From the NCBI GenBank assembly GCA_944393605.1, contig CALYAO010000007.1, forward strand, positions 1 to 64,000: DNA of 64,000 bases, written 5' to 3'. The notes below the pieces were generated by a model, which searched no databases, had not been told where the DNA came from, and worked only from the letters and a program-made list of their open reading frames with translations. The stretch is from an uncultured Clostridia bacterium. Its GTDB lineage: Bacteria; Bacillota; Clostridia; UBA1381; UBA9506. A program made the position numbers and the translations under genes. Positions 7,533 through 62,429 of this stretch are shown piece by piece (within the stretch, counting starts at the first letter, position 1; each line of letters opens with the position of its first letter).

Positions 7533-7604
7533 TGCTCCCGTAAACGGTATATACGGTAGGGCATTGCATATAAATAAGGTATTCTTATTAAAGGAGGAGA
7601 GGGT

Positions 7605-21647: not shown

Positions 21648-22526
21648 ATGGTTCGGATGAAAAAGCATGCGGGGGATTGGGCCTTTGACATCTTCAATTT
21701 CCTGCTCATGACGTTTTTGTGTTTTATTACGGTTTATCCGTTTCTGTACCTGTTGTCCTTGTCCTTTACTAGTGGGGATGTGCCGTTGACGCAGAACTAC
21801 ATCATCCCGCCGAAGGTGACACTGGATAACTATGCAAAGGTGCTGACCAATTCGGACATCGGCAACGGCTTTATCATGACCATTGCGCGGACGCTGCTTG
21901 GCACCGCGATTTCGCTGGTGTGTACAGTGTGTACCGCGTATCCGCTGTCCAAGAAATATTTTGTGCACCGCAACTTGTTCACCTCATTTGTGGTCATCAC
22001 GATGTTTGTGAGCGGAGGGACCATCCCGTCTTACCTGCTGGTCAAGTCCATCGGGTTAATGGACACCATCTGGGCATTGGTATTGCCGGGCGCGATCAGT
22101 GCGTATAATGTGGTCATCTGCCGGAATTTCTTCATGGGCATCCCCGATTCGCTGGAGGAGTCAGCGCGGATCGACGGGGCCAATGACATCATCATTCTGT
22201 TTCGGATCATCCTGCCCGTTTCGCTGCCCATCATCGCAACGCTGACGCTGTGGGTGGCGGTGGCGAACTGGAATGCGTGGTTTGACAGCTTGATTTATAT
22301 CACAACCTCCAGAAAACAGGTTCTGCAAGTGGTCATGCGGCGCATTGTGCTGGAAGGGACACAGGAGATGATGAATCCCGACCCCGAGCTGGAGGCCATG
22401 CTGGTAAATCCCGAGACCATCAAGGCAACAACGGTCATGGTCACCACGCTGCCCATCCTGTGTGTGTATCCATTCATTCAGAAGTACTTTGTCAAAGGGG
22501 TTATGGTTGGCTCGCTTAAGGGCTAA
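21648..22526 (+). CDS. ABC sugar importer permease, YtcP type (importer 1)
   Basis: The 292-residue protein has about six membrane segments and the EAA-type loop EESARIDGANDIIILFRIIL. The C-terminus (FIQKYFVKGVMVGSLKG) is characteristic of YtcP/AraQ-like partners. AAGGAGGGAG lies just upstream of the ATG. It forms the heterodimeric channel with the preceding LplB-type permease. Confidence 0.92.
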   Translation: MVRMKKHAGDWAFDIFNFLLMTFLCFITVYPFLYLLSLSFTSGDVPLTQNYIIPPKVTLDNYAKVLTNSDIGNGFIMTIARTLLGTAISLVCTVCTAYPLSKKYFVHRNLFTSFVVITMFVSGGTIPSYLLVKSIGLMDTIWALVLPGAISAYNVVICRNFFMGIPDSLEESARIDGANDIIILFRIILPVSLPIIATLTLWVAVANWNAWFDSLIYITTSRKQVLQVVMRRIVLEGTQEMMNPDPELEAMLVNPETIKATTVMVTTLPILCVYPFIQKYFVKGVMVGSLKG

Positions 22527-22571
22527 AAAAATAGCAAGGGAAATCAATTCATTCATTTGGGAGGGAAAGCA

Positions 22572-29613: not shown

Positions 29614-29644
29614 GCGGCAGGTCAGAATGAGAGGAGTTGAGAGC

Positions 29645-35893: not shown

Positions 35894-35916
35894 TTGACAT
35901 TGCATCAAAAAATGCC

Positions 35917-35945
35917 TATTGTCAAACGGAGCGCCATGCGATATA
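35917..35945 (+). promoter_or_regulatory. Sigma-A promoter for the PL8 lyase gene
   Basis: TTGTCA (35917-35922) and TATAAT (35940-35945) are 17 bases apart, about 78 bases before the GTG start. It opens a new transcription unit after the terminator at 35893. Confidence 0.75.
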
Positions 35946-36022
35946 ATGAAGGCAATTTGGAAGGCAGAAAAGGCAACGGCTGCGGCGGATCCGGCGTTCG
36001 CGGTCTGAAATGGGGGAGTGCC

Positions 36023-38092
36023 GTGGAATCTGATAGAGGGGACTTTTGGTTGATCAAAGCGCGCCTGCGGAAACAGCAGACCGTCTTGCCTTTGGACGGG
36101 GAGCTGGCAGCGGCATGTGTACAAAATATGCGCGCGGATGGCAGTTGGGCGGACGTGGATTATGAGACCAACAGCGGTACGGTGTGGGAGGCACGCGAGC
36201 ATTTGGCGCGTCTGCTGCATCTGGCGCGGGCTTATGCAAAAGCCGGCGGGGACTTCTTGGGCGATGCGGCGGTGCGGGAGGCTGTGCTGCGGGGGCTGGC
36301 ATTTTGGTATGCCGGTGCATTTTGCAATCCCAACTGGTGGCAGAATGACATCGGTAAACAGCTGGAACTGCGGGAGATCGCCCTGTTGATGGAGGCAGAG
36401 CTGCCCCAAGAACGAATGGAAGCGGTTGTGGCGGACTTGCAGACCGAGGTGCCTGCATCCTATACAGGGGCCAATGCGCTGTGGATCGCGCAGAACGTCC
36501 TCTACCGCGGGCTGTTTACCCACAATGCAGAGCTGGTTCGGTATGCGGTGGCGCAGATGGCAGCAACCGTCCGGATGGCACAGAGTATGGAGGATGTGGA
36601 TGGCATCCAGCCCGACTACAGCTTTACACAGCATGGGCGGCAGCTGTACAGCAACGGATATGGGCGGTCTTACTTCACGGGGATAGCTGCGTGGTGTTTC
36701 CTTCTGCGGGATACCTTTGCTGCGTTCCCGCCGCAGGCCATTCGGTTGGTGACTGATTTGTTTTTGAATGGACATCGATGGATGTTTCGATATGATGCAT
36801 GCGACTATGGGACGCTGGGCCGGGAATTCACCCGGCAGCACCATGCGGGACGGCTGGCGATGCAGGACTACCTGCCTGCGCTTGGGATGCTGGCAGAGCT
36901 GCAGGAGGACCCTGTGCGCCGAGCTGGGTTGGAAGCGGCTATGGCGCACATCCGCGGCGAGCAAGCGACGCCTGGGGTCACCGGAAATCGCATGTTTTGG
37001 CGGGTGGACTACATGGCCCATCTGCGGGCACCTTTTTTTGCATCGGTGCGTATGCTGTCGCGGGATGTGACGGGAGGCGAGGAGATCAACCGGGAAAACC
37101 TGGTGGGGGGCTTTGGCGCCTATGGCGCATCTTGTTTTATGACGCATGGGGCAGAATACCAAGGCATCTTTGGCCTGTGGGACTGGACGCACCTGCCGGG
37201 TGTTACGGCGCCGGCGGTTGCACTGCCCACCGGCTTGGGTGCACACATGGATAGCACCTTTGTGGGCGGCGTTTCGGATGGGACGTTTGGCATGGCGGCG
37301 ATGTGTCTGGACAAGACCTATCAATGGCCCGAAGGCGCCGCATCGGCCCGGTTGGCGGGAAAAAAGGCGGCCTTCTTCTGGGAGGACGGCGTTCTGTTTT
37401 TGGGGGCTGGCTTGGCATGTGATGCCCCCCAGCCGGTGAATACGACAATTAACCAGTGCCATCTGCGCGGCAGGGTTTTATTGGACGGTGCTGCTGTACC
37501 TCAGACGGATGCTTTGACGGTGCGGCATGGGACAGTGGTTTGGCACGATGGGATCGGATATGTCTTCCCTGATGGGCAGGATGTCTTGCTGAAAAATGGA
37601 CCGCAGACAGGCAATTGGCGCACCATCACCCAGGCGCCCGACGCCCCGCAGGAGGACGTGTCAGGGGACATTTTTTTGCTGTGCCTGTCCCACGGGGTGC
37701 ATCCGCAGGGTGGTACATATTGTTATGCGGTACTGCCGGGCATTTCCCAGGACTGTGCGGCGGCATACGCGGCGGACGGCTTGCCGTGGGAGATTCGCAA
37801 TGACGATGTTGTACAGGCGGCATGGCACAGCGCCCTTGGCGTGGGGATGGCGGCGTTTTATACGGCAGGGGAGACGGTGCTGGGTGGACAGACCATACGC
37901 GTAGACAGCCCTTGTCTGTTGCTTCGCCGCCGGACGGACCAGGGAGATAGCTATGTGTTATCCTGTCCCTATCGCTGCGGCGGCAGCGTGGGTGTGACGG
38001 TGACGGACCGCAGCGGATGCCGGCGTGTGGCGGTTCCGCTGCCCACGGAAGCAATCAGGATGGGGGCGTCGGTGCCCTTTTCCGTGTCCTAA
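36023..38092 (+). CDS. PL8-family polysaccharide lyase without signal peptide
   Basis: The 689-residue product matches PL8 lyases (hyaluronate, chondroitin AC or xanthan lyases). NWWQNDIG sits near 104-111, TGANALW near 148 supplies the expected Asn (N151), and HGRQLYSNGYG near 204-214 supplies the His/Tyr pair (H204, Y213) with the nine-residue spacing known in the family. The beta-sandwich half follows from about 360 with GNRMFWRVDYMAH. PL8 enzymes cleave uronic-acid-linked polymers by beta-elimination and are normally secreted. None of the start options here gives a signal peptide, which points to cytoplasmic action on imported fragments. GTG 36023 is chosen because GGGGGAG lies five bases upstream; the longer frame to 35894 overlaps the promoter. 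Substrate is undetermined. Confidence 0.85.
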   Translation: MESDRGDFWLIKARLRKQQTVLPLDGELAAACVQNMRADGSWADVDYETNSGTVWEAREHLARLLHLARAYAKAGGDFLGDAAVREAVLRGLAFWYAGAFCNPNWWQNDIGKQLELREIALLMEAELPQERMEAVVADLQTEVPASYTGANALWIAQNVLYRGLFTHNAELVRYAVAQMAATVRMAQSMEDVDGIQPDYSFTQHGRQLYSNGYGRSYFTGIAAWCFLLRDTFAAFPPQAIRLVTDLFLNGHRWMFRYDACDYGTLGREFTRQHHAGRLAMQDYLPALGMLAELQEDPVRRAGLEAAMAHIRGEQATPGVTGNRMFWRVDYMAHLRAPFFASVRMLSRDVTGGEEINRENLVGGFGAYGASCFMTHGAEYQGIFGLWDWTHLPGVTAPAVALPTGLGAHMDSTFVGGVSDGTFGMAAMCLDKTYQWPEGAASARLAGKKAAFFWEDGVLFLGAGLACDAPQPVNTTINQCHLRGRVLLDGAAVPQTDALTVRHGTVVWHDGIGYVFPDGQDVLLKNGPQTGNWRTITQAPDAPQEDVSGDIFLLCLSHGVHPQGGTYCYAVLPGISQDCAAAYAADGLPWEIRNDDVVQAAWHSALGVGMAAFYTAGETVLGGQTIRVDSPCLLLRRRTDQGDSYVLSCPYRCGGSVGVTVTDRSGCRRVAVPLPTEAIRMGASVPFSVS

Positions 38093-43905: not shown

Positions 43906-46197
43906 TTATTTGTCACCCAAATTTTTTACATATTCACCAGGTGAAATCCCGTCATATCGCTTGAAGATGCGGATAAAGGTGCCGACGTTGTTACACCCGA
44001 CGGCCCCGGCGACCTCTGCTATCTTTCGGCTCGGGTCTTTTGCCAGCATTTCTTTGGCGCGCTGAACCCGGTATAGATTGAGGTAATCTTTAAACGTGGT
44101 TTTCGCCTCGTTTTTAAACAATCGGCTGATGTATCCCGTTGAGATATGGAATCGGTCTGCAATATCAGTCAGCGATACGTCCCGGTCATAGTTGTCCCGC
44201 ACAAATGCCAGCACCCGTTCAATCAGGCTCTGGCCTGCCAGGTCAACGCCTTCATGCGCCTTGTTGAAGATGGCGGTGAAGGCGGCTATGATCTTCTCTT
44301 CCAGCTGCTGTGGCGTTTCACAGTAACGGAAGTCCAGATACAATATGCTGCCTTCTTCAAAGACGTCCTCTGGGCGCAGCTCAAGCTGCTGCAAGGTGCG
44401 CTTGATGGTGGCCACAATGGAGTAGATAAACTCATTTAGGACTTCTTTGCTCAACGCATGGTCATACAGGTTGATTTTCAGCAGGCGGCGCAATAGCGTC
44501 AGCGCCTTTTCCATCTCCCCTTTCTCGATGTACAGAAGCAGATTGCGTTCCATGTCGATGGGGTAATAGAAACTGGTTTCCTGCAGCCCTGCCATGTCTT
44601 CGGCTAAAATCACCGGACGTTTGAAACCCGTAAACTTATTTTCCAGCATAAACATGGCATCCGAAAAAGAATCGGGAGCCTCATACAACGAATCGACCTG
44701 TTTTCCCACAAAGGCGAGCAGGCTCACATCCAAGCTGTCTTCCATATTCCGGATGGCACTCGTTAAAACATCCCGCAGCGGCTCTCGTTCCCGACAGGGC
44801 ACAATGACTGTAAATCGTTTGTAATCCAGTTGGAACGCCATACTGTCCGGATAAGAAACCGTGAGTAACTGCCCGATGCCAACCAACACCGCCTGGTTGG
44901 TCTCCACCCAGACATCTCGGTCGGCATCCAAGTCGATGTAATCTGCGAATTCCATCACAACCACGCACAGCGGGGTCAAATACCGCTCCAAATGATAGGT
45001 TTTCACCATGCGGTCAATATCCTCCCGCTTCAAAAGGCCATACAAAAGCTCACTGAACACCTTGAGTTTTAGGCTCTCTTCCCGGTCTTCCAGCTCCTGC
45101 GCGAGCTCCTCATTGGTATTGTTGATGGAAATAATCGCATTTTGGATAAATGCCATCTCATCTTTGGGAAGACCGACCCCTTGGCCGCGCAACATGGTGA
45201 TAATCGCACGGATGGGCGAATAGCTGCGTTTGGTGTTGGTAAATGCAACAAATGAACCAACCAGCAAAACCAGCAGAACCACCAGCAGCGTCGTCAGCAG
45301 GATATTGTACACCATAAGAGATCCCTGCCGAACGGCATAGACATAGTTCCAGTTTGGAATAAGCCCGCTGCGTACGACGTAAAATCGTTCCCCGCCATGC
45401 TTGACATATTGACATTCCTGCCCGACATCCTGTATCAGCTCTTCATTCGCCAATACCATCTCGGTGGTTTTGTCCCAATAGGCGGGCGTACTGCTGGTAA
45501 CTACGGTGCCGCTGTCCAAAACCGCAAAGCCCTCCGCTTCCGTGTTTTCAAACGTGGGCAGCGTATCCTGTTGATAAAAAAAGATGAAAAAATCCAAGAC
45601 GCCGATGTCTGGATATTTTTTGCGATATACCACCGTAAAGGCAACATCCCGTTTTTCCACGACTTCCACTGAGCTGTTGATGGTATAGTAAGACTGCTGC
45701 GTAAACTCTGTATTCGCCAGATACGTCGCCAACGCCCCAATGGTTTCTGCAGAAAGGCCCCAATCCGAAAAATAGGCATTAAAAGTATCGGAGGAGTCGG
45801 AATCCACAATCATGTCCGAATGTTCTTTCCGGCATGCGACTGAAAACCCCAAGCCTGCCAGCGGATTCACAATACGGCGCAGCCGATTGCTGGCAATGGC
45901 ACGCCAATAAGGGCTGTCGCTGTCATCCCGGCAATAGGAGACGAATTGCTCGTCGCTTTCTAAAATGCCGATGGCCTGCATGGCAACGCTCAGGCGCGTG
46001 TCAATCCGGTCCCGCTGCTGCTCCAAAAAGACGCTGTGGTTGGCCGTAATTTGTGTATTTTCGACATAGTTGCGGTTATAAAACGTGAGGCCCCCTACAA
46101 TCACGGTCAACATAAAAACCAGCACCATATTGCCAACAAACAATGTCCGAAAATAGGCGGATTGCCGCATATGCTGTTTCCACAGCAGGCGTTTCAT
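43906..46197 (-). CDS. Membrane-spanning AraC-family sensor/regulator 2
   Basis: The 763-residue protein has membrane segments near 18-40 and 297-319 around an extracellular region of about 255 residues, a central cytoplasmic region, and a C-terminal AraC-type domain (VSLTDIADRFHISTGYISRLF and AEVAGAVGCNNVGTFIRIFK). Its plan matches regulator 1, but the sensing domains are not obviously alike, so it may see a different fragment of the same glycan. GGAGGG lies just upstream of the ATG. It is divergent from SLH pair 2 and importer 2, the probable targets. The second helix pair has CNNVGTF where family members usually have an aromatic (Y or F) residue. Confidence 0.9.
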   Translation of the reverse strand: MKRLLWKQHMRQSAYFRTLFVGNMVLVFMLTVIVGGLTFYNRNYVENTQITANHSVFLEQQRDRIDTRLSVAMQAIGILESDEQFVSYCRDDSDSPYWRAIASNRLRRIVNPLAGLGFSVACRKEHSDMIVDSDSSDTFNAYFSDWGLSAETIGALATYLANTEFTQQSYYTINSSVEVVEKRDVAFTVVYRKKYPDIGVLDFFIFFYQQDTLPTFENTEAEGFAVLDSGTVVTSSTPAYWDKTTEMVLANEELIQDVGQECQYVKHGGERFYVVRSGLIPNWNYVYAVRQGSLMVYNILLTTLLVVLLVLLVGSFVAFTNTKRSYSPIRAIITMLRGQGVGLPKDEMAFIQNAIISINNTNEELAQELEDREESLKLKVFSELLYGLLKREDIDRMVKTYHLERYLTPLCVVVMEFADYIDLDADRDVWVETNQAVLVGIGQLLTVSYPDSMAFQLDYKRFTVIVPCREREPLRDVLTSAIRNMEDSLDVSLLAFVGKQVDSLYEAPDSFSDAMFMLENKFTGFKRPVILAEDMAGLQETSFYYPIDMERNLLLYIEKGEMEKALTLLRRLLKINLYDHALSKEVLNEFIYSIVATIKRTLQQLELRPEDVFEEGSILYLDFRYCETPQQLEEKIIAAFTAIFNKAHEGVDLAGQSLIERVLAFVRDNYDRDVSLTDIADRFHISTGYISRLFKNEAKTTFKDYLNLYRVQRAKEMLAKDPSRKIAEVAGAVGCNNVGTFIRIFKRYDGISPGEYVKNLGDK

Positions 46198-46792: not shown

Positions 46793-48616
46793 ATGGCTTT
46801 GCGAACAAAGAGACGAAGAAGCAGAGTGGTGGCTGGTTTGGTTGCGATTTGTCTGCTGCTTGGCATGGTGCCGGTGTATGGGGCGGAAACCGCTTTGAGC
46901 CCTGGAGCGGATTTTGCCTTTCAGCTGGACATTGAACAGACTCCGCCTGTTGTCACCGTCAGTGGCATCCTTGCGGACAACCCCGCATACCGTTTGGTTG
47001 GCATGCAGGTGCTCTACTGTGGCCCGCTGACCGGCAATGTGGACGAGGCGCAGAGGCTGGCACAGTATGAGACTGCAAAAGCGGCGCTGGGCGGCAGTGC
47101 TGCGGGTGTGGACTTTTCGGACACCTTGTTTTATTACGATCAACAATTGACCGATGCGGCCGGCAACTATGCGTTCACCTTTACACAGGATGGGGAAGAT
47201 GGCCTGTATGCGGTTCGTTTATTTACGGAAAACAGCCAATCGCTGGGCTATTATTTCTACAATTTCTTTGATCCGGCAGATATCGCCCAGACTGTCTTGC
47301 GTCTGGACACTGCGACCCCGGAGGAAATGGTTCAGATTATCGCAGATAACAGCTTTAAGCTGAACATGGATCTTGCTGGCTACGATACGCTGGATGAAGC
47401 GGGCAAGCGGGAGGTATGCCGGATTGCGGCCGTAAACCGGGAGGCATTGGGCGGCACTTTTGGCGGACTCAACGGCTTCCTTGCAGTGTTTGGGGAGGCA
47501 AAGATATTGCATCAGCTCAACACGGCTGCTGACGCCGACACATTTATGGCGCAGGCAACAGCCAATGAGTCCTTGTTCGGGTTGGCGCAGGAGGCCGCAT
47601 ATGAGACGTATGTGGGTCTTTCGGAAGAGACCCAAACGCTCATTGGGGATGCGCTGGCGGCCATGCAATTTGATTTGGCGGCGGATGTGGCTGCGGCATT
47701 CCGGGAAACAACGGTGCTGCTGGGGATACATAAGGTTGTATACTCCAACGAAGTGGGGGATATCCTGCGGCAGAACAGCGCATGGCTGACGGCGGAATTC
47801 GAGTTTGATTTTACGGACTATAACGCGGATGAGGACCTTGCGGAAGCGGTGAATAAGGAGTTGGCCGGGCATTTATACGGCGACATTGCGAAGCTGCGAA
47901 GCGCGTTTGTCGCAGCGATGGACGATACGGAGGAGGATAACCAGGGCGGACAGAGACCGGGCAGCAACACGGGCGGCGGCGGTTCTTCGGGCAGCCGTCC
48001 TTCGGGACCTACCATCAGCACAGGCGGCCAGCCAACCCAGACCGCGACGCCCGCACCCACTGCATCGGTGCGGTTCTCGGACATGGAAGATGCGGCATGG
48101 GCGATTGAGGCCGTGGACCACCTGGCAGGCCTGGGGATTGTAAACGGACGGACGGATGGCTTGTATGAACCCAATGCAACCATCACACGGGAGGAGTTTA
48201 CCAAGCTGCTGGTGGTGGCGTTTGACCTTATGAAGCCGGGTGCACGCTGTAAGTTCACCGATGTGGCACGGGAGGACTGGAGCTATGATTACATCGCGAG
48301 TGCCGTTCGTGCGGGCATCGTCAGCGGCAAATCTGAGACGCTCTTTGGCGTCGGAGAGAATATCACGCGGCAGGAGATGGCGGTTATGATTGGCAGGACC
48401 GCTGACCGGTTGGGGCTGGTGCTGCCGCCGCAGGCGGAGGCAGTGACCTTTGCGGACGATGCGGAGATTGCGGAGTATGCGAAAGAGACGGTCAGCAAGA
48501 TGCAGGTGGCAGGGATCGTCTCGGGGGTTGGCGATAATCGATTTGACCCGCTGGGGACTGCGACTCGTGCACAGGCGGCGGTTATCATTGATAAGTTATA
48601 CCGCATTGCTAACTGA
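46793..48616 (+). CDS. Surface protein with C-terminal SLH repeats (SLH pair 2, first member)
   Basis: The 607-residue protein has a basic N-terminus and signal peptide (VVAGLVAICLLLG, cleavage after VYG-A). The body (about 35-375) opens with an Ig-like part and then a helical, Asp/Ala-rich part with no catalytic motif that I recognise. A Gly/Ser/Pro/Thr linker near 400-430 leads to three SLH repeats: FSDMEDAAWAIEAVDHLAGLG, then TREEFTKLL and FTDVAREDWSYDYI, and a last one with FADDAEIAEYA. ATG 46793 is chosen over 46790 and 46700 because AAAGGAG lies five bases upstream of it. It heads the operon after a long leader and is the counterpart of the 24340 protein, but without carbohydrate-binding modules. 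A second SLH gene follows. Confidence 0.83.
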   Translation: MALRTKRRRSRVVAGLVAICLLLGMVPVYGAETALSPGADFAFQLDIEQTPPVVTVSGILADNPAYRLVGMQVLYCGPLTGNVDEAQRLAQYETAKAALGGSAAGVDFSDTLFYYDQQLTDAAGNYAFTFTQDGEDGLYAVRLFTENSQSLGYYFYNFFDPADIAQTVLRLDTATPEEMVQIIADNSFKLNMDLAGYDTLDEAGKREVCRIAAVNREALGGTFGGLNGFLAVFGEAKILHQLNTAADADTFMAQATANESLFGLAQEAAYETYVGLSEETQTLIGDALAAMQFDLAADVAAAFRETTVLLGIHKVVYSNEVGDILRQNSAWLTAEFEFDFTDYNADEDLAEAVNKELAGHLYGDIAKLRSAFVAAMDDTEEDNQGGQRPGSNTGGGGSSGSRPSGPTISTGGQPTQTATPAPTASVRFSDMEDAAWAIEAVDHLAGLGIVNGRTDGLYEPNATITREEFTKLLVVAFDLMKPGARCKFTDVAREDWSYDYIASAVRAGIVSGKSETLFGVGENITRQEMAVMIGRTADRLGLVLPPQAEAVTFADDAEIAEYAKETVSKMQVAGIVSGVGDNRFDPLGTATRAQAAVIIDKLYRIAN

Positions 48617-48655
48617 GGGCGGATGCGAGACAATATGGAAAGAGGGGGAACGATA

Positions 48656-51502
48656 GTGAAACGGACATGGTCATATGTGTTACCCATGCTGTTGGCCGCG
48701 CTGCTGATGTGGCAGCTGACGGTTGGGGCGGAGGATAATAGCGCAGCCGAGGAGGCCGAGGCAGATGTGGCGCAGGGTTCCCGGTATGCGGAGGCCATTG
48801 ACGTCATGACAAAGCTCTTTTTGGTGAGCGGATACGACGAGGCGACCTTTGATGAGAATCAGGTGATCACCCGGGCAGAATTTACGGGTCAGGTCATGAT
48901 TTACTACAAAGGCGTGCAGAGCGAATTCAATCCAGATGTCGCGAATATCTTCCTGGACGTGGGCATTGACAACCAGTATGCGAATGATATCAATCTGGCA
49001 TACCAGATCGGTATTGTGTCGGGGGAAAGCGATCGGAAGTTTAACCCGGGCAGGGCAGTGTCGTACAATGAGGCGGTCAAGATGGTCGTAACGCTGCTTG
49101 GCTATGATGTGAATGCGGCCTACAAGGGCGGATATCCGACCGGGTATCTGCGGATGGCAAGTGAGCTTGGGCTACTTCGCGGGCTGGATACGAATCAGGA
49201 GCAGATGACCTGGGGTGCCGCCATCCAGCTGTTGTACAACGCGATTGACGTGGAGGTGCAGGTACAACGGGAGTTTGGAGAGCAATCAGTTTATGAGCTG
49301 GGAAAGCCGCTGGCGGAGGAGATGCTGGGCTTCATCAAAGAAGAGGGTACGGTCAACGCCATCGGGTTTAAGCGCCTTGGCAACGTTCGGGTTGACGCGG
49401 ACCAGATTTTGATCGGGGATAAAACGCTGGATATCGCCTTCGTGAAGGTGCCCGATTTGCTGGGATACAACGTGGACTACTACTATAAGGTGGACGAAGA
49501 CACTGAACGCAACACCTTACTTTACATAGCGGCCAATGATCAAAACGAAAATATGCTGGAAATCTCCCGCAGGGACCTGCTCAGCTACAAGGAACGTCTA
49601 TTCTCCTACTCAGAGCCGGGCAGCGATAAGGTGATCTATGAGCAGATTGCGCCTTCTACCGATGTGATCTACAACTATGCGCCTGCGGATGGGGACTACG
49701 AGACACTGATTGGCGGCGTCACCAATGGTGTGTTTCGGTTTATCGATGCCAACAATGACGGCACCTACGAGGACCTACTCATCATAGAGCCGAAGGACTA
49801 TGCGATCAAGTACGTAAATGAGGACAGCGAGTTCATCGTACCCATGTTTACCAATACCAATATTGCAATCCCGACCGCATCAGACGACACCTATACCCGC
49901 ATCATAAATGCGGATGGGATCGAGATGAACAGCATCCGCGGCCTGGGACTTGAGAAGTGGGATATGCTGTCAGTGATCAAAAGCCTGGACGGCACGGTGA
50001 CAGAGGTGACCATCTGCACAGGCACGGTGGAGGGTACCATCACCGAAATGGAGCAAGATGGCAGCACCATGACCGTTACGATTGAGGGAACTGAGTACAC
50101 CGTGACGCCCGATTGCGTGTCGGATATGATCGGCGTGAATTTCACGGGGACCTTCTACCTCAATGCACAGGGGGAGATCGCGGCAGTCAATACCGACATG
50201 GACGGGCAGACCATGCAGGTGGGATTGATCACCCGTGCGTCGCTGACCTCCAGTCTGGATGCGCGGCTGATGCTGGAGATCCTGACGCAGGAGAACCAGC
50301 TGGTACAGTATACCTTACGCAAGGATATTACGCTGGACGGGGAGAAATGTACCGAGATTGGGGAAAAGTATGCGCAGTATCTGGCAGGTGATATGTCCGA
50401 AAACGGCCTGTGGGGCCAGGGCGTCACCATCAAACGGGACCTCATTCGGTACCGGCTCAACGGTGAGGGGCTCATCACAGAGATTGATACGCCACGCACC
50501 TCCCCCTATGAGAGCTCATATGACGCCTTAAATGTGCTAAATACCGGCTTTACCAGCCAGGCGTCATCTGGTGGGACGGAGATCAAGGTGGCGGATACTG
50601 GAGAACGGGTGAAATATAACAAAACCCTCAATAAGCTGACCAGCGACAGCAAGAACGACGTCTTTATGAATGCGGAAACGACGGTTTATTTTGCACCCAC
50701 CGACCCTTCGGATTGGGACGAACGGCAGTATCGGGTTGGGACGACCACCATGTTCAGCAATGGGAAGTATTACCAAATTATGGCATATAACACCACGCAG
50801 CACAGCAAATATGCGACCCATGTGATTTACTACAAGACCGGCACGACGGGGGCACAGCTGACTTCGGACACGCCGCCGACGATCGTCTCCGAGGTGACCA
50901 AGGTGGTGGACGGCGAGGATATCGTCTGTAAGTTTACGGGGTTCACCTGGGAGAAGAACAAAATGGTGCGGGTGGAGGCACTGTGCGTGGACGAAAACAC
51001 GCTGGACAACGTGGCTTCTATGGGGAATACCAACGACACCTACAAGGTGGAGCCGGGCGACATCATTCGCTATGAGCTCAACGACTTTTCGCGGGTGGAT
51101 TCCATCGTGATGCTGTATAAATACAACCAGGACAGCATGGTGGCGGGCAATCCGATCGGACAGGGAAGCAATGGCGTTACCATGCCGGCCAAAAAGACGG
51201 AACAGTTCCGGCTATCCCGTGTGTATGTGTATGAAAAGATGGATGAATTTCTCACTTTCTCGTTTGAGGATCCCCGGAACTATGAGAGCTATGATCCCGA
51301 TCTGCTCCCCGCAGACAATGAACTGCACAAATGCACCAATACCGTTATTGTCTTATATGACAGCAAAGCGGGGGATGCACGGCGCGTGCGGCAGGGCAGC
51401 ATCTCGGACGTGAACGACTATGTGAACAACGGGGATCAGATGTCAGAGGTGTTCTTCTATAGCCGGTATGAAGAACCCAGAATGATCATTCTGTATCGGT
51501 AG
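48656..51502 (+). CDS. Surface protein with N-terminal SLH repeats and long beta-rich body (SLH pair 2, second member)
   Basis: The 948-residue protein has a signal peptide (WSYVLPMLLAALLMWQLTVG). Three SLH-like repeats lie at about 40-80 (ENQVITRAEFTGQVM), 90-140 (GIVSGESDRKFNPGRAVSYNEA) and 145-195. A beta-rich body of ~750 residues follows with phrases matching the 29645 protein: LLGYNVDYYYKVDED, GTITEMEQDGSTMTV, GDIIRYEL and a final EPRMIILY. No catalytic motif is seen. The GTG at 48656 is chosen because AGAGGGGG precedes it and the signal peptide then begins MKRTW. It lies 39 bases after its SLH partner and 40 bases before importer 2, so all are probably one operon. Confidence 0.77.
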   Translation: MKRTWSYVLPMLLAALLMWQLTVGAEDNSAAEEAEADVAQGSRYAEAIDVMTKLFLVSGYDEATFDENQVITRAEFTGQVMIYYKGVQSEFNPDVANIFLDVGIDNQYANDINLAYQIGIVSGESDRKFNPGRAVSYNEAVKMVVTLLGYDVNAAYKGGYPTGYLRMASELGLLRGLDTNQEQMTWGAAIQLLYNAIDVEVQVQREFGEQSVYELGKPLAEEMLGFIKEEGTVNAIGFKRLGNVRVDADQILIGDKTLDIAFVKVPDLLGYNVDYYYKVDEDTERNTLLYIAANDQNENMLEISRRDLLSYKERLFSYSEPGSDKVIYEQIAPSTDVIYNYAPADGDYETLIGGVTNGVFRFIDANNDGTYEDLLIIEPKDYAIKYVNEDSEFIVPMFTNTNIAIPTASDDTYTRIINADGIEMNSIRGLGLEKWDMLSVIKSLDGTVTEVTICTGTVEGTITEMEQDGSTMTVTIEGTEYTVTPDCVSDMIGVNFTGTFYLNAQGEIAAVNTDMDGQTMQVGLITRASLTSSLDARLMLEILTQENQLVQYTLRKDITLDGEKCTEIGEKYAQYLAGDMSENGLWGQGVTIKRDLIRYRLNGEGLITEIDTPRTSPYESSYDALNVLNTGFTSQASSGGTEIKVADTGERVKYNKTLNKLTSDSKNDVFMNAETTVYFAPTDPSDWDERQYRVGTTTMFSNGKYYQIMAYNTTQHSKYATHVIYYKTGTTGAQLTSDTPPTIVSEVTKVVDGEDIVCKFTGFTWEKNKMVRVEALCVDENTLDNVASMGNTNDTYKVEPGDIIRYELNDFSRVDSIVMLYKYNQDSMVAGNPIGQGSNGVTMPAKKTEQFRLSRVYVYEKMDEFLTFSFEDPRNYESYDPDLLPADNELHKCTNTVIVLYDSKAGDARRVRQGSISDVNDYVNNGDQMSEVFFYSRYEEPRMIILYR

Positions 51503-51542: not shown

Positions 51543-52508
51543 TTGAGCGTAAACGCAATACCAAAACGCAAGACCACCGCGCTGGCAAGGCCGCTGGATC
51601 GGAAAAGGACCTTTTGGGCCAACATGAAACGGGACAAATTCCTTTATCTGGTAATTTTGCCGAGCGTGGTATACTATCTGATCTTTTTATACAAGCCCAT
51701 GTGGGCACTGCAAATCGCATTTAAGGATTACACCCCCTACCGGGGGGTGATGGGGAGCCCGTGGATTGGGTTTGAGCACTTTATCAGCTTTTTTACGGGA
51801 CCTTACTTCTGGAGGACGCTGCGCAATACCTTGGTCATCAACCTCTATTCGCTGGCATTTGGATTTCCGGCGCCCATCATTTTGGCGCTCATGCTCAATG
51901 AGGTGCGGAGCAACAAGTTCCGGCGGACCATCCAGACCATCACCTATATGCCGCATTTCATTTCCGCGGTGGTTGTGGTGGGCATTGTGACCAACTTTTT
52001 ATCTCCCACAACGGGGATTATCAATGTCATCATTGAAAAACTGGGAGGCGAGAAGACCTACTTTTTGACCAAGCCCGAATATTTCCGTGGGATCTACACC
52101 ATTATGGGCATTTGGAAAGAGGTTGGCTTCAATTCCATCGTGTACATTGCGGCGCTGTCGGGCATCGATGTGCAGCTTTATGAGGCGTGTACCATTGACG
52201 GCGGCGGCCGGTGGGCTAGGATCTGGCATGTGACGCTGCCGGGCATCCTGCCTACGGTTGTCATCATGCTCATCATGAAAGTCGGGAGCCTGCTGGAATG
52301 TGGGTATGAGACCATCATTCTGCTGTATCAGCCCGCGACTTACGAAACGGCGGATGTCATCAGTTCCTATGTGTACCGCGTGGGTCTGACGGACGGGCGG
52401 CATAGCTTTGCAACAGCAGTCGGCCTGTTTAACTCCGTGGTTGCGCTGATTTTGGTGGTTGGCGCCAACTATGTGAGCCGCAGGGTGACCGAAACCAGTT
52501 TGTGGTAA
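51543..52508 (+). CDS. ABC sugar importer permease, LplB type (importer 2)
   Basis: The 321-residue membrane protein has about six segments and the EAA-type loop YEACTIDGGGRWARIWHVTL. MWALQIAFKDYTPY near the first segment is typical of LplB. The start is TTG at 51543 with AAGGGGG about ten bases upstream; no ATG has a better site. It is a paralogue of the importer 1 permease. Its ATPase partner is not in the window. Confidence 0.9.
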   Translation: MSVNAIPKRKTTALARPLDRKRTFWANMKRDKFLYLVILPSVVYYLIFLYKPMWALQIAFKDYTPYRGVMGSPWIGFEHFISFFTGPYFWRTLRNTLVINLYSLAFGFPAPIILALMLNEVRSNKFRRTIQTITYMPHFISAVVVVGIVTNFLSPTTGIINVIIEKLGGEKTYFLTKPEYFRGIYTIMGIWKEVGFNSIVYIAALSGIDVQLYEACTIDGGGRWARIWHVTLPGILPTVVIMLIMKVGSLLECGYETIILLYQPATYETADVISSYVYRVGLTDGRHSFATAVGLFNSVVALILVVGANYVSRRVTETSLW

Positions 52509-52523
52509 AGGAGGGGATGCGAA

Positions 52524-53396
52524 ATGAAAAAGACAGCGGGTGAATGGATTTTTGAAGGGATCAATGGGCTGCTGCTGATCCTGCTGGCATGTGCGACCGC
52601 ATACCCCATCCTGTATGTGCTGGGAGCGTCCTTTTCCAGCCCGGAGAGTATCTATCGTGGGGAAGTTTGGCTATTGCCCAAAGGGTTTTCCACCGAGGCG
52701 TATAAGAATGTGCTGACCGATCCATCCATTTGGTCTTCCTATGGGAACAGCATCTTCTACACCGTAGTGGGCACTGCGCTCAGCGTGGTATTGACTGTGA
52801 GCGGCGCATATCCCATCTCCAAAAAACGGTTTCAGGGGCGGGTGTTCTTCACGTTCTTGTTTGCGCTGACCATGTGGTTTAATGCAGGGCTCATTCCGGC
52901 GTACCTCAACATCCAGGAATTGGGGTTGTACAATACGCGGCTGTCGGTGCTGCTGGTGGGCGCGTGTTCCGCCTTTTATATCATTTTGGTGCGAACCAAT
53001 TTTCAGGCGATTCCCGATTCTTTGGAAGAGGCGGCGACCATAGACGGTGCCAATGATCTGACGATTCTGATGCGCATCTATCTGCCGCTTTCCAAACCGG
53101 CCATTGCAACCATCACGCTGTTCTATGCAGTGAGCCGGTGGAATGGATATCTGTGGCCCATGATCTTGCTCAAAGACCTGGACAAGATGCCGCTGCAGGT
53201 GTTGCTCAAAAAACTGGTGGTGGAGTCGGGCGCGGGCGGTGAGCTCGCCGCCGTCATGGACATCACATCCCCCATTTCGCAGGAGACGATGGTGTATGCG
53301 ACCATCATTGTCGCAACCATCCCAATGCTGCTGGTTTATCCTTTTATTCAAAAATACTTTGAAAAAGGGATGATGATCGGTTCGGTGAAAGGGTAA
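52524..53396 (+). CDS. ABC sugar importer permease, YtcP type (importer 2)
   Basis: The 290-residue protein has about six membrane segments, the loop EEAATIDGANDLTILMRIYL and the family C-terminus FIQKYFEKGMMIGSVKG. AAAGGAGGGG precedes the ATG. It pairs with the preceding permease. Confidence 0.92.
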   Translation: MKKTAGEWIFEGINGLLLILLACATAYPILYVLGASFSSPESIYRGEVWLLPKGFSTEAYKNVLTDPSIWSSYGNSIFYTVVGTALSVVLTVSGAYPISKKRFQGRVFFTFLFALTMWFNAGLIPAYLNIQELGLYNTRLSVLLVGACSAFYIILVRTNFQAIPDSLEEAATIDGANDLTILMRIYLPLSKPAIATITLFYAVSRWNGYLWPMILLKDLDKMPLQVLLKKLVVESGAGGELAAVMDITSPISQETMVYATIIVATIPMLLVYPFIQKYFEKGMMIGSVKG

Positions 53397-53430
53397 ATAA
53401 AACATTTTTATCAAGAAGGAGATGGCATAC

Positions 53431-54996
53431 ATGAAAAAAAACAAGGTTTTGTCCGCCGGCTTGGCGGCATGCCTGTGCGTGAGCGCACTGGTTGGCTGTG
53501 GGGAGAAGGATACGAGTACCAGCAATACGCCGGGGCATGAACAGACGGAGTATTCGGTCAGTGAAGATTTGCTCAATCTGGACTTTTTCTATATGGGTGC
53601 GAGCACGGTGCTGGACTGCACAACGCCCATGTTCCAGGAGGCGGAGCGGCTGACCAACGTCAAACTGACCAACACCCTATCTCAGGCGACATCCGATGCG
53701 AAGCAGTCCTTTACCATCATGATGGCGTCAAAAGAACTGCCCGACATCGTCGCGTACTATGGCCGGGAAGAGTATTTTGCCTATGGCATGGATGGGGCGT
53801 TTGTGGCGCTCAACGATATGATTGATACGCAAATGCCCAACTTCAAGAAATTCTTGGAGGAACGGGATGACGTCCGCAAGTTCATCACCGCGCCCGACGG
53901 CAATATCTACTTCATCCCCTTTGTGCCCGACGGCAAGACCTCCAAGGGCTGGTTTGTCCGGCAGGATTGGCTGGATGCGCTGAACCTTGAGACGCCAACC
54001 AACGTGGAGGAGTATTACAACATGCTGGTGCAGTTCAGGGATGGAGACCCCAACGGCAACGGTGAACAGGATGAGGTGCCCTATTTTAACCGGAATATGG
54101 GAACCAATTACGAAGAGGGCATCTCGGATTTGTATAGCTTCTGGGGCGCACACAAGGAATTTTATGCGGACGAGGATGGTAAGGTGCACTTTGGCGCCAT
54201 CGAACCTGAGTTTAAAGAGGCTATCATAAACATCCAAAAATGGTATCAAGAGAAACTCATTGACACCGAAATCTACACCCGCGGCGGCAAGGCACGGGAT
54301 TACATGCTGGGCAATAACCTGGGTGGTTCCACGCATGACTGGTTTACATCCAATTCCACGTATAACACGTCTTTAAAAGACAAGATTCCGGGCTTTCAGT
54401 TTGTATCCATCGCGCCGCCCAGCGGCGTGGAGTATTCCAGCCGTCAGCTCATTCCCATTGGCTGGGCTATGACGTCGCAAAATGAGCATCCCGAAGAGAC
54501 CATCAAGTTTTTTGACTTCTGGTGGACGGAGAAGGGGCGGAATTTGGCAAACTTTGGAATCGAAGGAGAGCATTGGAACATGGTGGACGGGGAGCCGACC
54601 TTTACGCCAGAACTGCTTGAGAAAATCAAAAGTGATAACAGCATTCTGTTCAAAGAGTATGGCATTCAGTCGCAGATCGGCTTTCAGCAGGACTTCCGGT
54701 ATGAAGAACAGTGGGCAGACCCGGCCGCGCTGGAGGGCATGCAGAGCTATATCGACAACAACTATATCGAGGAGCCCTATCCGCCCGTCGCGTTTACGCC
54801 TGAAGAACAAAAGCGGTACAGTGAACTGCTGACCGCAATTAACACCCATCGGGATGAGCGGACGCAGCAGTGGATTTTAAACGGATCGGACGTGGAAGCG
54901 GAATTTGATGATTACCTAGAGAAGATGAAGGCGCTGGGCGTGGAGGAACTCATCGAACTCCAGCAAACTGCCTATGACCGGTACATGGAGGCGTAA
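53431..54996 (+). CDS. Extracellular solute-binding lipoprotein (importer 2)
   Basis: This 521-residue lipoprotein has a signal peptide ending SALVGC, so Cys23 is the likely lipid site. The family-1 solute-binding fold includes the acidic loop DGDPNGNGEQDEVPY. ATG 53431 is preferred to ATG 53422, which directly abuts the AAGGAG site (53416-53421). It resembles the importer 1 lipoprotein in plan, but only short stretches look alike, so the ligands may differ. Confidence 0.9.
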   Translation: MKKNKVLSAGLAACLCVSALVGCGEKDTSTSNTPGHEQTEYSVSEDLLNLDFFYMGASTVLDCTTPMFQEAERLTNVKLTNTLSQATSDAKQSFTIMMASKELPDIVAYYGREEYFAYGMDGAFVALNDMIDTQMPNFKKFLEERDDVRKFITAPDGNIYFIPFVPDGKTSKGWFVRQDWLDALNLETPTNVEEYYNMLVQFRDGDPNGNGEQDEVPYFNRNMGTNYEEGISDLYSFWGAHKEFYADEDGKVHFGAIEPEFKEAIINIQKWYQEKLIDTEIYTRGGKARDYMLGNNLGGSTHDWFTSNSTYNTSLKDKIPGFQFVSIAPPSGVEYSSRQLIPIGWAMTSQNEHPEETIKFFDFWWTEKGRNLANFGIEGEHWNMVDGEPTFTPELLEKIKSDNSILFKEYGIQSQIGFQQDFRYEEQWADPAALEGMQSYIDNNYIEEPYPPVAFTPEEQKRYSELLTAINTHRDERTQQWILNGSDVEAEFDDYLEKMKALGVEELIELQQTAYDRYMEA

Positions 54997-58416: not shown

Positions 58417-58455
58417 TGCGGGTCCCAATAAATGGAAGGAGTACGCATACATACC

Positions 58456-59655
58456 ATGGAGATGGAACCAATGAACCAAATTTTGGAACGCATTGCAAAA
58501 AATGCGGCAGCCTTGGGCACCAAGCATCCCGACGTCAACACCATGGACAACGACCTGCACTATGGACGTGGCCATGGGGGTTCCTGGGTGGATTCCTTTT
58601 GGGTGGGGATGCTGTATCTGGCCTATGCGTATAGCGGGGACAGCACATATCTAACCTATGCGGACGGTTACCAGCCTTTTTACCGGCTCCGCATCAAGGA
58701 CACCGATGCGGTCTGTGAGGCCCATGGCTTTATGAAGCTGGACCATGATACCGGGTTTCTGTTCACCCTTTCGCAGGTGGCGCGCTTTAAGCTCACGGGG
58801 GACCGGGAGGCACGGGACATGGCGCTGCGTGCGGCGGATATTTTGGCAGCACGCTTCCATGAGAAGGGCAGCTTTATCCGCGCATGGGATACTTGGAAAT
58901 GGGATACCAACCCCGCATTTATCCGGGAAAAGAAGGGAAAAACCATCATCGACAGCCTGATGAATCTGCCGCTGTTGATGTGGGCGTTTGGGGAAACGAA
59001 TGATAGTCGGTATGGGGACATTGCCGTCCGGCACGCGGATACCGTTCTGCGGTACATGGTGCGCGCGGACGGCTCCACCTGCCACACCTTCAACTTTGAT
59101 CCGGATACGGGGGAGCCCATCGGGGAAAAAACCGGACAGGGTTATGCGGATGACTCCTGCTGGAGCAGAGGACAGAGCTGGGCGGTCTATGGCTTCGCGC
59201 TGCTGTATGCGTATACGGGCGAAAAGCGGTATCAGGATGCCTTCCTGCGGGTGGCGGACTATTTTTGGGATCACCTGACCACGGTCAAGGTGCCGGTTTG
59301 GGATTTTGCGGTGCTGACGGATGACACGGCCCCCTATAAGCCATGGGACAGTTCGGCGGGCTGCATTGCGGCCTGTGGCATGCTGGAGATGGCGGCGCAT
59401 CTGGGAACGGATGGGGCCCGCTACCGCGCACGTGCGGCCGCGATTTTAGACCATACCACCCGACTGTGTGCAACTTTGGGGATCGCCGGGGCAGAGCCCA
59501 TCTTGCTGCATGGCTGCGGCGGCCCGGCTTACCGGCGGGAGGATCCGTCCCGCATCAAGCCCGGCATCTGTGATACGCCGCTCTTGTTTGGGGATTATTT
59601 CTATACCGAGGCGCTCATGCGGATGGAGAAGCCTGACATGGTGCGCTTTTGGTAG
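58456..59655 (+). CDS. GH88 unsaturated glucuronyl hydrolase
   Basis: The 399-residue protein matches the UGL family (alpha/alpha barrel). KLDHDTGFLF near 94-103 holds one catalytic Asp (D98) and TIIDSLMNLPLL near 163-174 the other (D166). WSRGQSWAVYGFALLY near 236-251 is also conserved in the family. The enzyme hydrates the 4,5-unsaturated glucuronyl residue left by lyases on glycosaminoglycans, gellan or xanthan, releasing a keto-acid. No signal peptide is present, so it is cytoplasmic. The start is uncertain. AAGGAG ends at 58441, leaving 14 bases to ATG 58456; ATG 58432 lies before the site and ATG 58471 is another option. Confidence 0.88.
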   Translation: MEMEPMNQILERIAKNAAALGTKHPDVNTMDNDLHYGRGHGGSWVDSFWVGMLYLAYAYSGDSTYLTYADGYQPFYRLRIKDTDAVCEAHGFMKLDHDTGFLFTLSQVARFKLTGDREARDMALRAADILAARFHEKGSFIRAWDTWKWDTNPAFIREKKGKTIIDSLMNLPLLMWAFGETNDSRYGDIAVRHADTVLRYMVRADGSTCHTFNFDPDTGEPIGEKTGQGYADDSCWSRGQSWAVYGFALLYAYTGEKRYQDAFLRVADYFWDHLTTVKVPVWDFAVLTDDTAPYKPWDSSAGCIAACGMLEMAAHLGTDGARYRARAAAILDHTTRLCATLGIAGAEPILLHGCGGPAYRREDPSRIKPGICDTPLLFGDYFYTEALMRMEKPDMVRFW

Positions 59656-59666
59656 GGGGGGATGGA

Positions 59667-62429
59667 ATGCGAAAACAGATAGCGGTGCTGCTCGTGATGA
59701 TGCTAATGGCCGCGGTGCTGCCGCACACGTGGGCGCTTTCGACGGTTACCATACAAAAACCGGCATCAGACATTGCGGTGCCTGTTGGGTATGACCTCGT
59801 ATTGGAGGCACAGGCGCCCGGCGCAGATCGGGTGGAGTTTTGGGAAGCGGGCCGCGTTGTGGGAACAGCGGCCCAATCAGATGGCATCTATCAGTTTGTG
59901 TGGCAAAATTTACCAAAAGGAGACCATGTTATCACGGCCCGGGGCTATGACGCAGCAGGCGGCTATGTGGACTCTGAACCCGTCACGGTGCGGACGACGG
60001 ACTATCAGGCTGTGGAGACCTTTGCGGAGGAGCATTTTGACGACCTGGACATCTCGCTTGCCAGCAGAGGGAACAAGGCATATACCAATGTGGTAACGGA
60101 TTTCGCGCTGTATGGCGAGTTTCATGACACCATCAGTACGCAGCCTTCCCCACAGGGGACGGGTCAGCCAGCCAAGACGGGGAAAAGCCTGTTGATCGAG
60201 AAGGGGGCGGGGGACTATGGCGCCGGCAAGCTGGCGAGCGTGACCTACCAGGGGCCCGGCATCGAGACGGCCACCCGGAACCAGATTGGGAAAGGGCAGC
60301 GGCTGCGTTTTGCGGTGAGCGTCTATGCGGAGCAGACGGATGTGGCGTTTTCTCCGCTGGAGATCATCAATGGGACTTCGGGCAATACGTTGGCGTTTTT
60401 GAAGTTTGAACGGACGGGCCAGATCGTCTATTCCTATTATACGGATGTCGACGGCACGGAAAAGGAACAAAAGTTGGCGGTTGGGACGTATGAGGCGAAC
60501 AAATGGTATCAGCTGCGGTATGAATTTGACACCCAAAATATGCTGGTGGACTGCTGGCTGGATGGGGAACGCATCGTGGCGCAGCAGCCGTTTCGCCTCC
60601 CGTCCAACTTCCAGTCGGGCAATCTATATGGCATTCGAACCCGGATGGAATCCCGGCAGGGCTATGACTCCCGCATCTATGTGGACGACCTTACGTGGGA
60701 GCACGATGTGCCGCCTGCTTCCACTGAAGTGATTTGGGTGGACCAGACGGGTGCGGACGGTGCATACACCACCATCCAGGCAGGCATTGATGCGGCGCAG
60801 ACCTCGGGTGCGACGGTTTTGGTGCGGGACGGCATCTATGAAGAGGATGTCCTGTTTACCAAAGCCGGCAGCAAGTATGATAAATTCACGCTGCAGGCCG
60901 TTGGGGATGGCGCAGTCATCCGCGGCAGTGTGACCATGGCCGAAAGCGCGCCCTATATCCGGGTGGAAGGATTTGAGCTGGACGGACAGGCTAAAATCCC
61001 GTATACCGAGGAGCAGCTGGCATATATCGCGGCTTCCTTTGCGGAAGGCGGCACTCCGCTTACCCAGGCGGAAAAAGAGGCCTTTTGGGCACAGGAAGAT
61101 GCCGCAACGCGCAGCGCATTTACGGTGAAGAGCAGAGGCTGTGAGGTGGTGGGCAACGAGATACACCATTTCATGGGATATGGGGTGAGCCTGGCCTATG
61201 ATAAGGGCGTGGATGCCTATGTGGCCGGCAACCGCATGGACAACTGTTCGGGCGGCGTGTACGTCGCGAGCGGCGCGGTGGTGGAGTACAACGAGATTGC
61301 AAACATCAACATCTTTGGCGGTGCGAACGTGGCGGGAGATATCTTCCGCATCTTTGGCAGCGACATCATCATCCGCGGCAATTACAGCCACGGCACCACG
61401 CGGGAGGGCGTGAAGAAGGTGCTGCCAACGTCGGCGGGGGACTGGCTGGCCCATGCGGACGTGATCCAAAGCTGGGATACTTATGCGGCCTACATCCAGA
61501 ATGTCCTGATAGAAGACAACGTGTTTTTGGGCTTTTATCACCAGGGCGTCATGTTGGAAAACGACAACTTTGGCGCGGGCGGCGGCCCGCTTTACATCCG
61601 GGATTGGACGCTCCGAAACAACATATTTTCGGGGTTTGAAGCGTGGGCCATCTGCGGCGGCAAGACGGATGGCGGCGTGCCTGGCATGGTGGTGGAAAAC
61701 AACGTGTTCCGCGCGCACCAGGATGGGTCACACAACGGCGTGGTATTCCGGGGACGGGGCGCTTCGGGCATCGCGCGCAACAATGTTTTCATTGGCAAGG
61801 GCCTGGCCGTCATGGAATCTGCGACGGTACAGGCGGACTACAACGTCTATCTGAACGGTGCGGTCGCTGGGTCGGGCTGTGCGGGCGCGCATGACCAAGT
61901 GCTGGCGGCGGTGGCGGATGCGTGCTTTGTGCGGTTCAATGCCGCCGATGCCAATGACGATAATCCGGCCACCATGAGCGATTACCATCTGCTCGCGCAG
62001 TCACCCCTCATTGATGCGGGGACGGATGTGTCCTTTCCAACGGATCAGGACGGGCTTCCGCGCAAGATTGGGTCGCACGTGGACATTGGCCCGTATGAGT
62101 ATGACAGCCGGCCGCAGGTTGCGGCGGAGATCGTGCAGGAGGGGACGAGCCTGATGGGGAGCGTCACGATCCAAAATCGAGGGGATACTGCTATTTCGGC
62201 AATATGCGCCCTGGCCAGCTATCGGGACGGGGAGCTCCTGGACATTGATTACCAGCCCGTCACGGTGCCGGCAGGGGAGCACCATTATGCGCTGTCGCTC
62301 GCGGATGTCCCGGCGGATATGACGGAAGCGAAGCTGTTTGTTTGGGATGCGGGGATGGTTCCCCTGCTGCCAGAGCCCGCTGTGTTTGCAGGCGGCGCCA
62401 ACGAGATGAGAAAGGGAGAAGCGGAATGA
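59667..62429 (+). CDS. Secreted right-handed beta-helix protein, probable polysaccharide lyase
   Basis: The 920-residue protein has a signal peptide (cleavage after TWA). An Ig-like part (25-110) and a concanavalin-like part (115-345) precede the beta-helix (about 350-810), which opens with ADGAYTTIQAGIDAAQ and then ATVLVRDGIYEEDVL. The rungs include HADVIQSWD, YHQGVMLEND, RDWTLRNNIFSG and ICGGK, shared with the next gene. Parallel beta-helix enzymes of this look include PL6, PL9 and related lyases and epimerases. The last ~90 residues resemble the WDSL module (KLFVWDAGMVPL). GGGGGG precedes ATG 59667; an in-frame TTG at 59649 is less likely. The helix family is clear and the catalytic role is inferred. 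Confidence 0.72.
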   Translation: MRKQIAVLLVMMLMAAVLPHTWALSTVTIQKPASDIAVPVGYDLVLEAQAPGADRVEFWEAGRVVGTAAQSDGIYQFVWQNLPKGDHVITARGYDAAGGYVDSEPVTVRTTDYQAVETFAEEHFDDLDISLASRGNKAYTNVVTDFALYGEFHDTISTQPSPQGTGQPAKTGKSLLIEKGAGDYGAGKLASVTYQGPGIETATRNQIGKGQRLRFAVSVYAEQTDVAFSPLEIINGTSGNTLAFLKFERTGQIVYSYYTDVDGTEKEQKLAVGTYEANKWYQLRYEFDTQNMLVDCWLDGERIVAQQPFRLPSNFQSGNLYGIRTRMESRQGYDSRIYVDDLTWEHDVPPASTEVIWVDQTGADGAYTTIQAGIDAAQTSGATVLVRDGIYEEDVLFTKAGSKYDKFTLQAVGDGAVIRGSVTMAESAPYIRVEGFELDGQAKIPYTEEQLAYIAASFAEGGTPLTQAEKEAFWAQEDAATRSAFTVKSRGCEVVGNEIHHFMGYGVSLAYDKGVDAYVAGNRMDNCSGGVYVASGAVVEYNEIANINIFGGANVAGDIFRIFGSDIIIRGNYSHGTTREGVKKVLPTSAGDWLAHADVIQSWDTYAAYIQNVLIEDNVFLGFYHQGVMLENDNFGAGGGPLYIRDWTLRNNIFSGFEAWAICGGKTDGGVPGMVVENNVFRAHQDGSHNGVVFRGRGASGIARNNVFIGKGLAVMESATVQADYNVYLNGAVAGSGCAGAHDQVLAAVADACFVRFNAADANDDNPATMSDYHLLAQSPLIDAGTDVSFPTDQDGLPRKIGSHVDIGPYEYDSRPQVAAEIVQEGTSLMGSVTIQNRGDTAISAICALASYRDGELLDIDYQPVTVPAGEHHYALSLADVPADMTEAKLFVWDAGMVPLLPEPAVFAGGANEMRKGEAE

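Follow-up and report, generated by a model that had tools for sequence, protein, structure and literature searches.

In the gpPULs of Roseburia and E. rectale, polysaccharide-degrading enzymes, a carbohydrate transporter and a regulator lie together in one locus (PMC5320581). Paenibacillus sp. JDR-2 takes another route, in which SLH-anchored multimodular CAZymes with carbohydrate-binding modules (CBMs) work with ABC transporters (PMC4765114). By comparison with the SusC/SusD route, far less is understood of the way in which monoderm gut bacteria collect long polysaccharides ahead of ABC import. These gpPULs and SLH enzymes were what we found in the open-licence literature; a description of the gene pair treated below was not found there, which does not exclude one elsewhere.

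The pair was noticed in a window of 64,000 nucleotides from the genome of an uncultured Clostridia bacterium (GCA_944393605.1, contig CALYAO010000007.1). According to the original prediction, a gene for a protein with C-terminal SLH repeats (C-SLH) is followed, 31–39 bases later, by a gene for a protein with N-terminal SLH repeats (N-SLH) and a beta-rich body of about 700 residues, and this couple occurs twice. Both couples are indeed present as described, at 24340-32350 and 46793-51502. We refer to the N-SLH protein family as BODY and to a module common to most C-SLH partners as SHORT:

24340-29613, + strand: couple 1 partner (ATG, 1757 aa); five CBM_4_9 domains, Big_2 and three C-terminal SLH repeats (Pfam)
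29645-32350, + strand: couple 1 BODY (ATG, 901 aa); N-terminal SLH, then a body of ~700 aa
46507..46536, + strand: promoter-like site 5' of couple 2 (TTGACC-18-TATAAT, 11/12; consensus match only)
46793-48616, + strand: couple 2 partner (ATG, 607 aa); SHORT module (beta then helical), Gly/Ser linker, three C-terminal SLH repeats
48656-51502, + strand: couple 2 BODY (GTG, 948 aa); three N-terminal SLH repeats, then a predicted chain of OB-like barrels

The intergenic gaps are 31 nt in couple 1 and 39 nt in couple 2. All four genes (starting at 24340, 29645, 46793 and 48656) have an RBS-like stretch upstream and a signal-peptide-like start, and Pfam SLH matched all four proteins. The two BODY proteins of the window are homologous (E 4e-23, 23% identity across 596 aa), and the phrases GTITEM and (A/D)-I-(Q/R)-Y-(K/E)-L, which had been picked out as common to both, occupy aligned positions. 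Each couple had also been placed beside an LplB/YtcP importer, a lipoprotein and an AraC sensor. Both loci proved to hold permeases of these types, together with a solute-binding protein and a large regulator of the AraC type:

16951..19260, + strand: large AraC-type regulator, locus 1 (C-terminal NCBIfam AraC-family matches; local AraC profile match)
20682..21632, + strand: LplB-type ABC permease, locus 1 (BPD_transp_1 E 6e-13; 44% identity to the locus 2 LplB)
21648..22526, + strand: YtcP-type ABC permease, locus 1 (BPD_transp_1 E 3e-8)
22557..24203, + strand: solute-binding protein, locus 1 (SBP_bac_8 E 2e-8)
32481..35855, + strand: SASA-type carbohydrate esterase with CBM_4_9, adjoining couple 1 (Pfam)
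35894..38092, + strand: polysaccharide lyase family 8 (Lyase_8 E 1e-62; N- and C-terminal PL8 domains)
43906..46197, - strand: large AraC-type regulator, divergent from couple 2 (HTH_18 E 2e-19)
51543..52508, + strand: LplB-type ABC permease, locus 2 (BPD_transp_1 E 4e-15)
52524..53396, + strand: YtcP-type ABC permease, locus 2 (BPD_transp_1 E 2e-13)
53422..54996, + strand: solute-binding protein, locus 2 (SBP_bac_1 E 4e-7)
58432..59655, + strand: GH88, unsaturated uronyl hydrolase family, locus 2 (Glyco_hydro_88 E 5e-13)
59649..62429, + strand: beta-helix/Big_7 secreted protein, locus 2 (Beta_helix E 8e-6, Big_7; choice-of-anchor Q)

The importer genes (LplB-YtcP-SBP) come before couple 1 but after couple 2. 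Both window loci hold the minimum of a gpPUL, that is, enzyme, transporter and regulator (PL8, SASA, GH88, LplB/YtcP/SBP, AraC). From what is known of their families, the enzymes PL8, SASA and GH88 suggest that the substrates in the window may be polysaccharides containing uronic acids. Further large genes lie upstream of locus 1: a 1544-aa SASA/CBM_4_9 protein at 11983-16617 (-), and two very large frames of 1271 and 1288 aa at 3717-11471 (+), the second with CBM_4_9-like matches.

BODY is one unnamed family. Its paralogues first came to light when the couple 1 BODY was used to search the bacterium's own genome; a profile built from 15 bodies then gave 23 matches in this 2.5-Mb genome. The family is present in all 41 genomes of a set comprising this genome and 40 relatives (1 to 28 matches each) and in 82 of 291 genomes sampled across the class; in a sample of the phylum, just three weak partial matches were obtained besides the own genome. 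These partial matches (G394, G430 and G435, from outside the class, one of them a single-contig genome) could help to trace the origin of the family. A scan of named genomes was run with an alignment of the solitary core orthologues described below, the BODY alignment being too divergent for such a scan; most of the genomes matched were MAGs from the gut of ruminants and other hosts, and a few were others, e.g. Acetivibrio sp. MSJd-27 and Candidatus Aphodoplasma.

Identity among BODY paralogues is very low, about 20%, and a G-D-I/V-I-x-Y motif is nearly invariant among the 15. The bodies are acidic and contain less than 1% Trp. No known CBM, lectin or other Pfam family was found in the 15 bodies beyond weak sub-threshold matches, and no conserved catalytic-looking set of residues was found among the invariant columns. 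As had been predicted for the two long bodies of the window, no enzyme family matches either, and a catalytic role for the bodies was rejected on these grounds. Two variations were seen along the way. Several BODY proteins (L054:422-4570, L049:7620-11075, L050:10320-13430, L103, L137, L140, L143 and L156) have 150-480 additional residues before the SLH repeats, with no SHORT match in them. On G000, contigs C35/C36 and C69/C70 carry similar SLH or BODY matches at near-identical positions, possibly strain variants or recombining alleles of surface genes.

SHORT, also unnamed, occurs in 49 of 55 partners, just before the SLH repeats; it was not detected by profile search in the couple 1 partner (24340-29613). 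Fifty-six of the 291 class genomes have it, and 51 of those 56 also have BODY. In a poor single-sequence AlphaFold model (pLDDT 37), it looks beta then alpha. The partners are bimodal in length (537-602 aa and 666-2495 aa), and some of the large ones additionally carry CBM_4_9, F5/8C, Big or GDSL esterase domains. A known CBM is present in the large partners at 24340-29613, L055, L117 and L140; none was found in the short partner P0003, in L049, L059 or L137, or in the SHORT module. A viral connection was rejected: the partner alignment found no relative in the viral contigs scanned, and structural matches to viral proteins outside the SLH part seem to be spurious alignments of long beta stretches. 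BODY and SHORT are two families for which Pfam has no model, and they are therefore worth naming.

Are the two genes of a couple neighbours by chance? The original prediction was exposed to a survey in which such SLH genes might have proved to be randomly scattered; run on the own genome, the order and the class, the survey instead found the adjacency of C-SLH and N-SLH genes to be recurrent. Outside the window, genes were called from codon usage, by a model trained on the window, rather than taken from curated annotation, and the relatives' 57 non-core loci were picked by BODY matches, blind to their neighbours. In the own genome and its order, a C-SLH gene lies directly upstream of 56 of 74 non-core BODY genes, with a median gap of about 40 bp. 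On the same strand and in direct succession, the arrangement was seen at 14 of 17 own-genome loci (non-core, upstream gene visible) and at 42 of the relatives' 57, to which the counter adds one locus without an upstream gene in view. In the remaining 15, the two genes are fused (four loci), the partner is directly downstream (four) or one gene away (three), or there is no partner (four). Among class-level non-core loci outside the order, 14 of 19 are adjacent, part of these loci having been chosen by partner positions. As background, a C-SLH gene stands directly upstream of 26 of 823 other genes (Fisher p about 1e-52 vs. BODY) and of none of 21 other N-SLH genes in the own genome and order; these counts reject chance clustering of SLH genes. 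At the level of sequence evidence, the pairing is established. An apparent fifteenth pair lies near a contig edge (G000:C82:356-3591), where a BODY match comes after a short frame with three SLH repeats.

The fusions merit separate attention. Four genomes each contain a single open reading frame (L114, L118, L132 and L152; 1373-1433 aa) that runs SHORT, three SLH repeats, SLH, BODY; the frames preserve the domain order of the gene pair and have no internal stops. In addition, a 1402-aa frame of G210 holds SHORT and BODY matches together. The fusions are classical gene-fusion evidence that the two genes share a function, and a joint function of the pair at the wall is likely. Divergence of the partner also tracks that of BODY (Mantel r 0.39, p 5e-4; 49 pairs, permuted within genomes); within the own genome alone, where identities are near saturation, pair divergences are uncorrelated (r 0.08, p 0.29). 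In one rival account, the pair is nothing more than SLH-anchored glycan proteins of the ordinary kind known from Paenibacillus, set next to each other by operon convenience and forming no joint device. Paenibacillus sp. JDR-2 offers a precedent for it (PMC4765114); however, two specific enzyme-free families in fixed order, with four fusions and near-exclusive co-occurrence, would not be expected from it, and we consider it quite improbable.

The surroundings of the pairs were examined for importers and CAZymes. The proposed siting of a couple next to every sugar importer is true of the window but not of the whole genome: only 7 of the 19 LplB-type permeases of the own genome lie within 12 kb of a BODY, and roughly one pair in two lacks an importer within a distance of six genes. 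Counted from the BODY side, a permease occurs within six genes at 8 of 17 own loci and at 23 of the relatives' 57; in the own genome, the proximity exceeds chance at p about 0.002, a rough binomial estimate. Genes no more than four positions from pairs include those for GH36, GH10, GH42, GH53, GH141, CBM9, F5/8C, GDSL and beta-helix proteins. The commonest family near pairs is a copper amine oxidase N-terminal-type domain (PF07833; 8 of 68 proteins), which is absent from the list of core neighbours. A third SLH protein, its SLH repeats N-terminal or central, often follows the pair, bears pectin-lyase-like, GH141-like or CBM9 domains and may be a third component (examples: L056:15408-19460, L099:10132-14124, L125:10117-13473 and L064:4368-8183).

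With such neighbours, the pair might position the secreted enzymes of the locus at the wall without itself touching glycan, in the manner of a cell-bound cellulosome scaffold. Several neighbour proteins are large and multidomain, some with SLH repeats of their own, and a train of barrels would suit the task. Yet no cohesin or dockerin is among the families listed for the pair proteins or their neighbours, and enzymes that carry their own SLH repeats would not need docking. We regard this account as unlikely.

One BODY lineage stands alone. A tree sets apart a slowly evolving BODY clade, which we call the core (it includes L051). Core BODY genes are solitary in the own, relative and named loci, conserved at 46-62% identity, and have mostly housekeeping genes as neighbours. 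In codon bias among 364 genes of the own genome, the core gene is at the 99.5th percentile and BODY paralogues range from the 12th to the 85th; the core body has 0 Cys and 18.7% D+E. Since it is solitary, sits among housekeeping genes and is biased in codon usage in the way typical of highly expressed genes, the core orthologue is probably the cell's main S-layer or surface protein, a reading drawn from codon bias, composition and architecture only. We infer that the paired BODY copies belong to the family of the core protein. Just upstream of the core gene (loci L177, L178, L187, L190, L191, L195, L202, L205 and L208), a SLH protein of ~600 aa without a SHORT match is often encoded in divergent orientation.

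The kinship with the core raises another alternative: the pairs may be interchangeable S-layer subunits, switched on as the growth state changes, to evade phages or the host or to maintain the wall, and sited in glycan loci through shared regulation only and handling no glycan. Acidic, Trp-poor bodies related to a core with highly-expressed-type codon bias would fit such coats, as would paralogues about 20% identical, which is what surface variation should produce. The carbohydrate-binding and esterase domains on some partners speak against it, however, as does the fact that the surroundings of the pairs are rich in CAZymes and those of the core copy are not. We judge these alternative coats to be rather unlikely.

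Structural prediction agrees with the claim of a beta-rich body following the SLH repeats. The AlphaFold2 model of the couple 2 BODY (pLDDT 75, pTM 0.55; region 816-919 unreliable) consists of three SLH repeats and then beta modules. Its residues 31-214 match the SpaA-SLH trimer (Z about 18, rmsd 2.5-2.9), and the body is predicted to form a row of small barrels, for which the top structural matches are OB-like and weak (Z 5-8). DDB1-like PDB matches were discounted as spurious long-beta alignments. No sequence relative of the body was found among solved structures; a missing structural match is no proof of a new fold. The OB-like barrel train, poor in Trp, points in the model to a scaffold more than to a lectin.

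CsaB, which is expected where SLH domains are anchored, is encoded in the own genome (TIGR03609, 265.6 bits; cut-off 213.1). Neither a TonB plug (PF07715) nor Omp85 was found there, an absence that is strong but not absolute given that the assembly has 97 contigs and is 95% complete. Together, the gene content is consistent with a monoderm wall bearing a pyruvylated polymer. A SusC-type outer-membrane reading was rejected for want of plug and Omp85, and so was the idea that the protein is a porin like OmpM, tethering the outer membrane in a diderm Firmicute. OmpM likewise carries an N-terminal SLH domain, and solved SLH-domain proteins (8bym, 8bys and 8bz2) match weakly, in the SLH part only; the model, however, has several small barrels one behind the other instead of a single large one. 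This account is exceedingly improbable.

We favor, with moderate confidence, the reading in which the two proteins of each couple function as a unit, namely a surface platform that is anchored to the wall and belongs to a polysaccharide-utilisation locus, substrate-specific and S-layer-related. In this platform, the N-SLH/BODY protein would be a diverged paralogue of the probable main S-layer protein, its SLH trimer anchoring to the pyruvylated wall polymer and its OB-like barrels forming a scaffold in the surface layer. The C-SLH partner would anchor beside it and present SHORT plus, in larger versions, carbohydrate-binding or esterase domains. Upon induction of the locus, the two proteins would together form a patch of surface layer specific for the substrate, where glycan is held or let in close to the locus enzymes and the ABC importer. 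Secretion, anchoring and fold of the pair proteins are predicted features; a physical complex and incorporation into the S-layer would follow from the proposal. A putative role in capturing or holding glycan is plausible, with CBMs on some partners and not on the bodies.

A bolder proposal, which we advance tentatively, is that of a categorically new kind of glycan-acquisition device: a large clade of gut Clostridia may have repeatedly duplicated an S-layer protein, giving each copy a dedicated wall-anchored partner, such that each locus has its own substrate-specific patch and the whole is a monoderm counterpart of SusC/SusD. If true, it would show that evolution has repeatedly co-opted an S-layer protein family for nutrition. 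The two unnamed families, conserved as a pair in fixed order, with natural fusions and as many as about 28 copies of BODY in a single genome, supply concrete genes to test, and the pair type could help to predict the glycan targets of uncultured Clostridia.

How, then, does the pair compare with the described systems? A gpPUL is defined without a surface pair, whereas the present loci have a dedicated SLH pair as an extra element; many pairs elsewhere have no ABC permease nearby. With Paenibacillus sp. JDR-2 it has in common SLH triplets, CBMs and ABC transporters that come together at the wall; there, however, the SLH repeats are on one large catalytic enzyme, while here they are on two proteins, of which BODY has no enzyme domain and is related to a probable S-layer protein. 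The SLH trimer fold (Z 16-18) and an encoded CsaB recall SpaA of Paenibacillus alvei and Sap of Bacillus anthracis. Unlike them, the present body has no sequence relative among solved structures, is predicted to be a train of OB-like barrels and comes in locus-specific duplicates with partners. The likeness to SusC/SusD that had been proposed at the outset does not extend to molecular kinship: SusC/SusD is an outer-membrane transporter with a lipoprotein, whereas the proteins here are anchored to the wall by SLH, and import would be via ABC transporters. It does hold for genome organization, in that, as in the PULs of Bacteroidota, many divergent paralogous pairs per genome keep a fixed order within glycan-utilisation loci.
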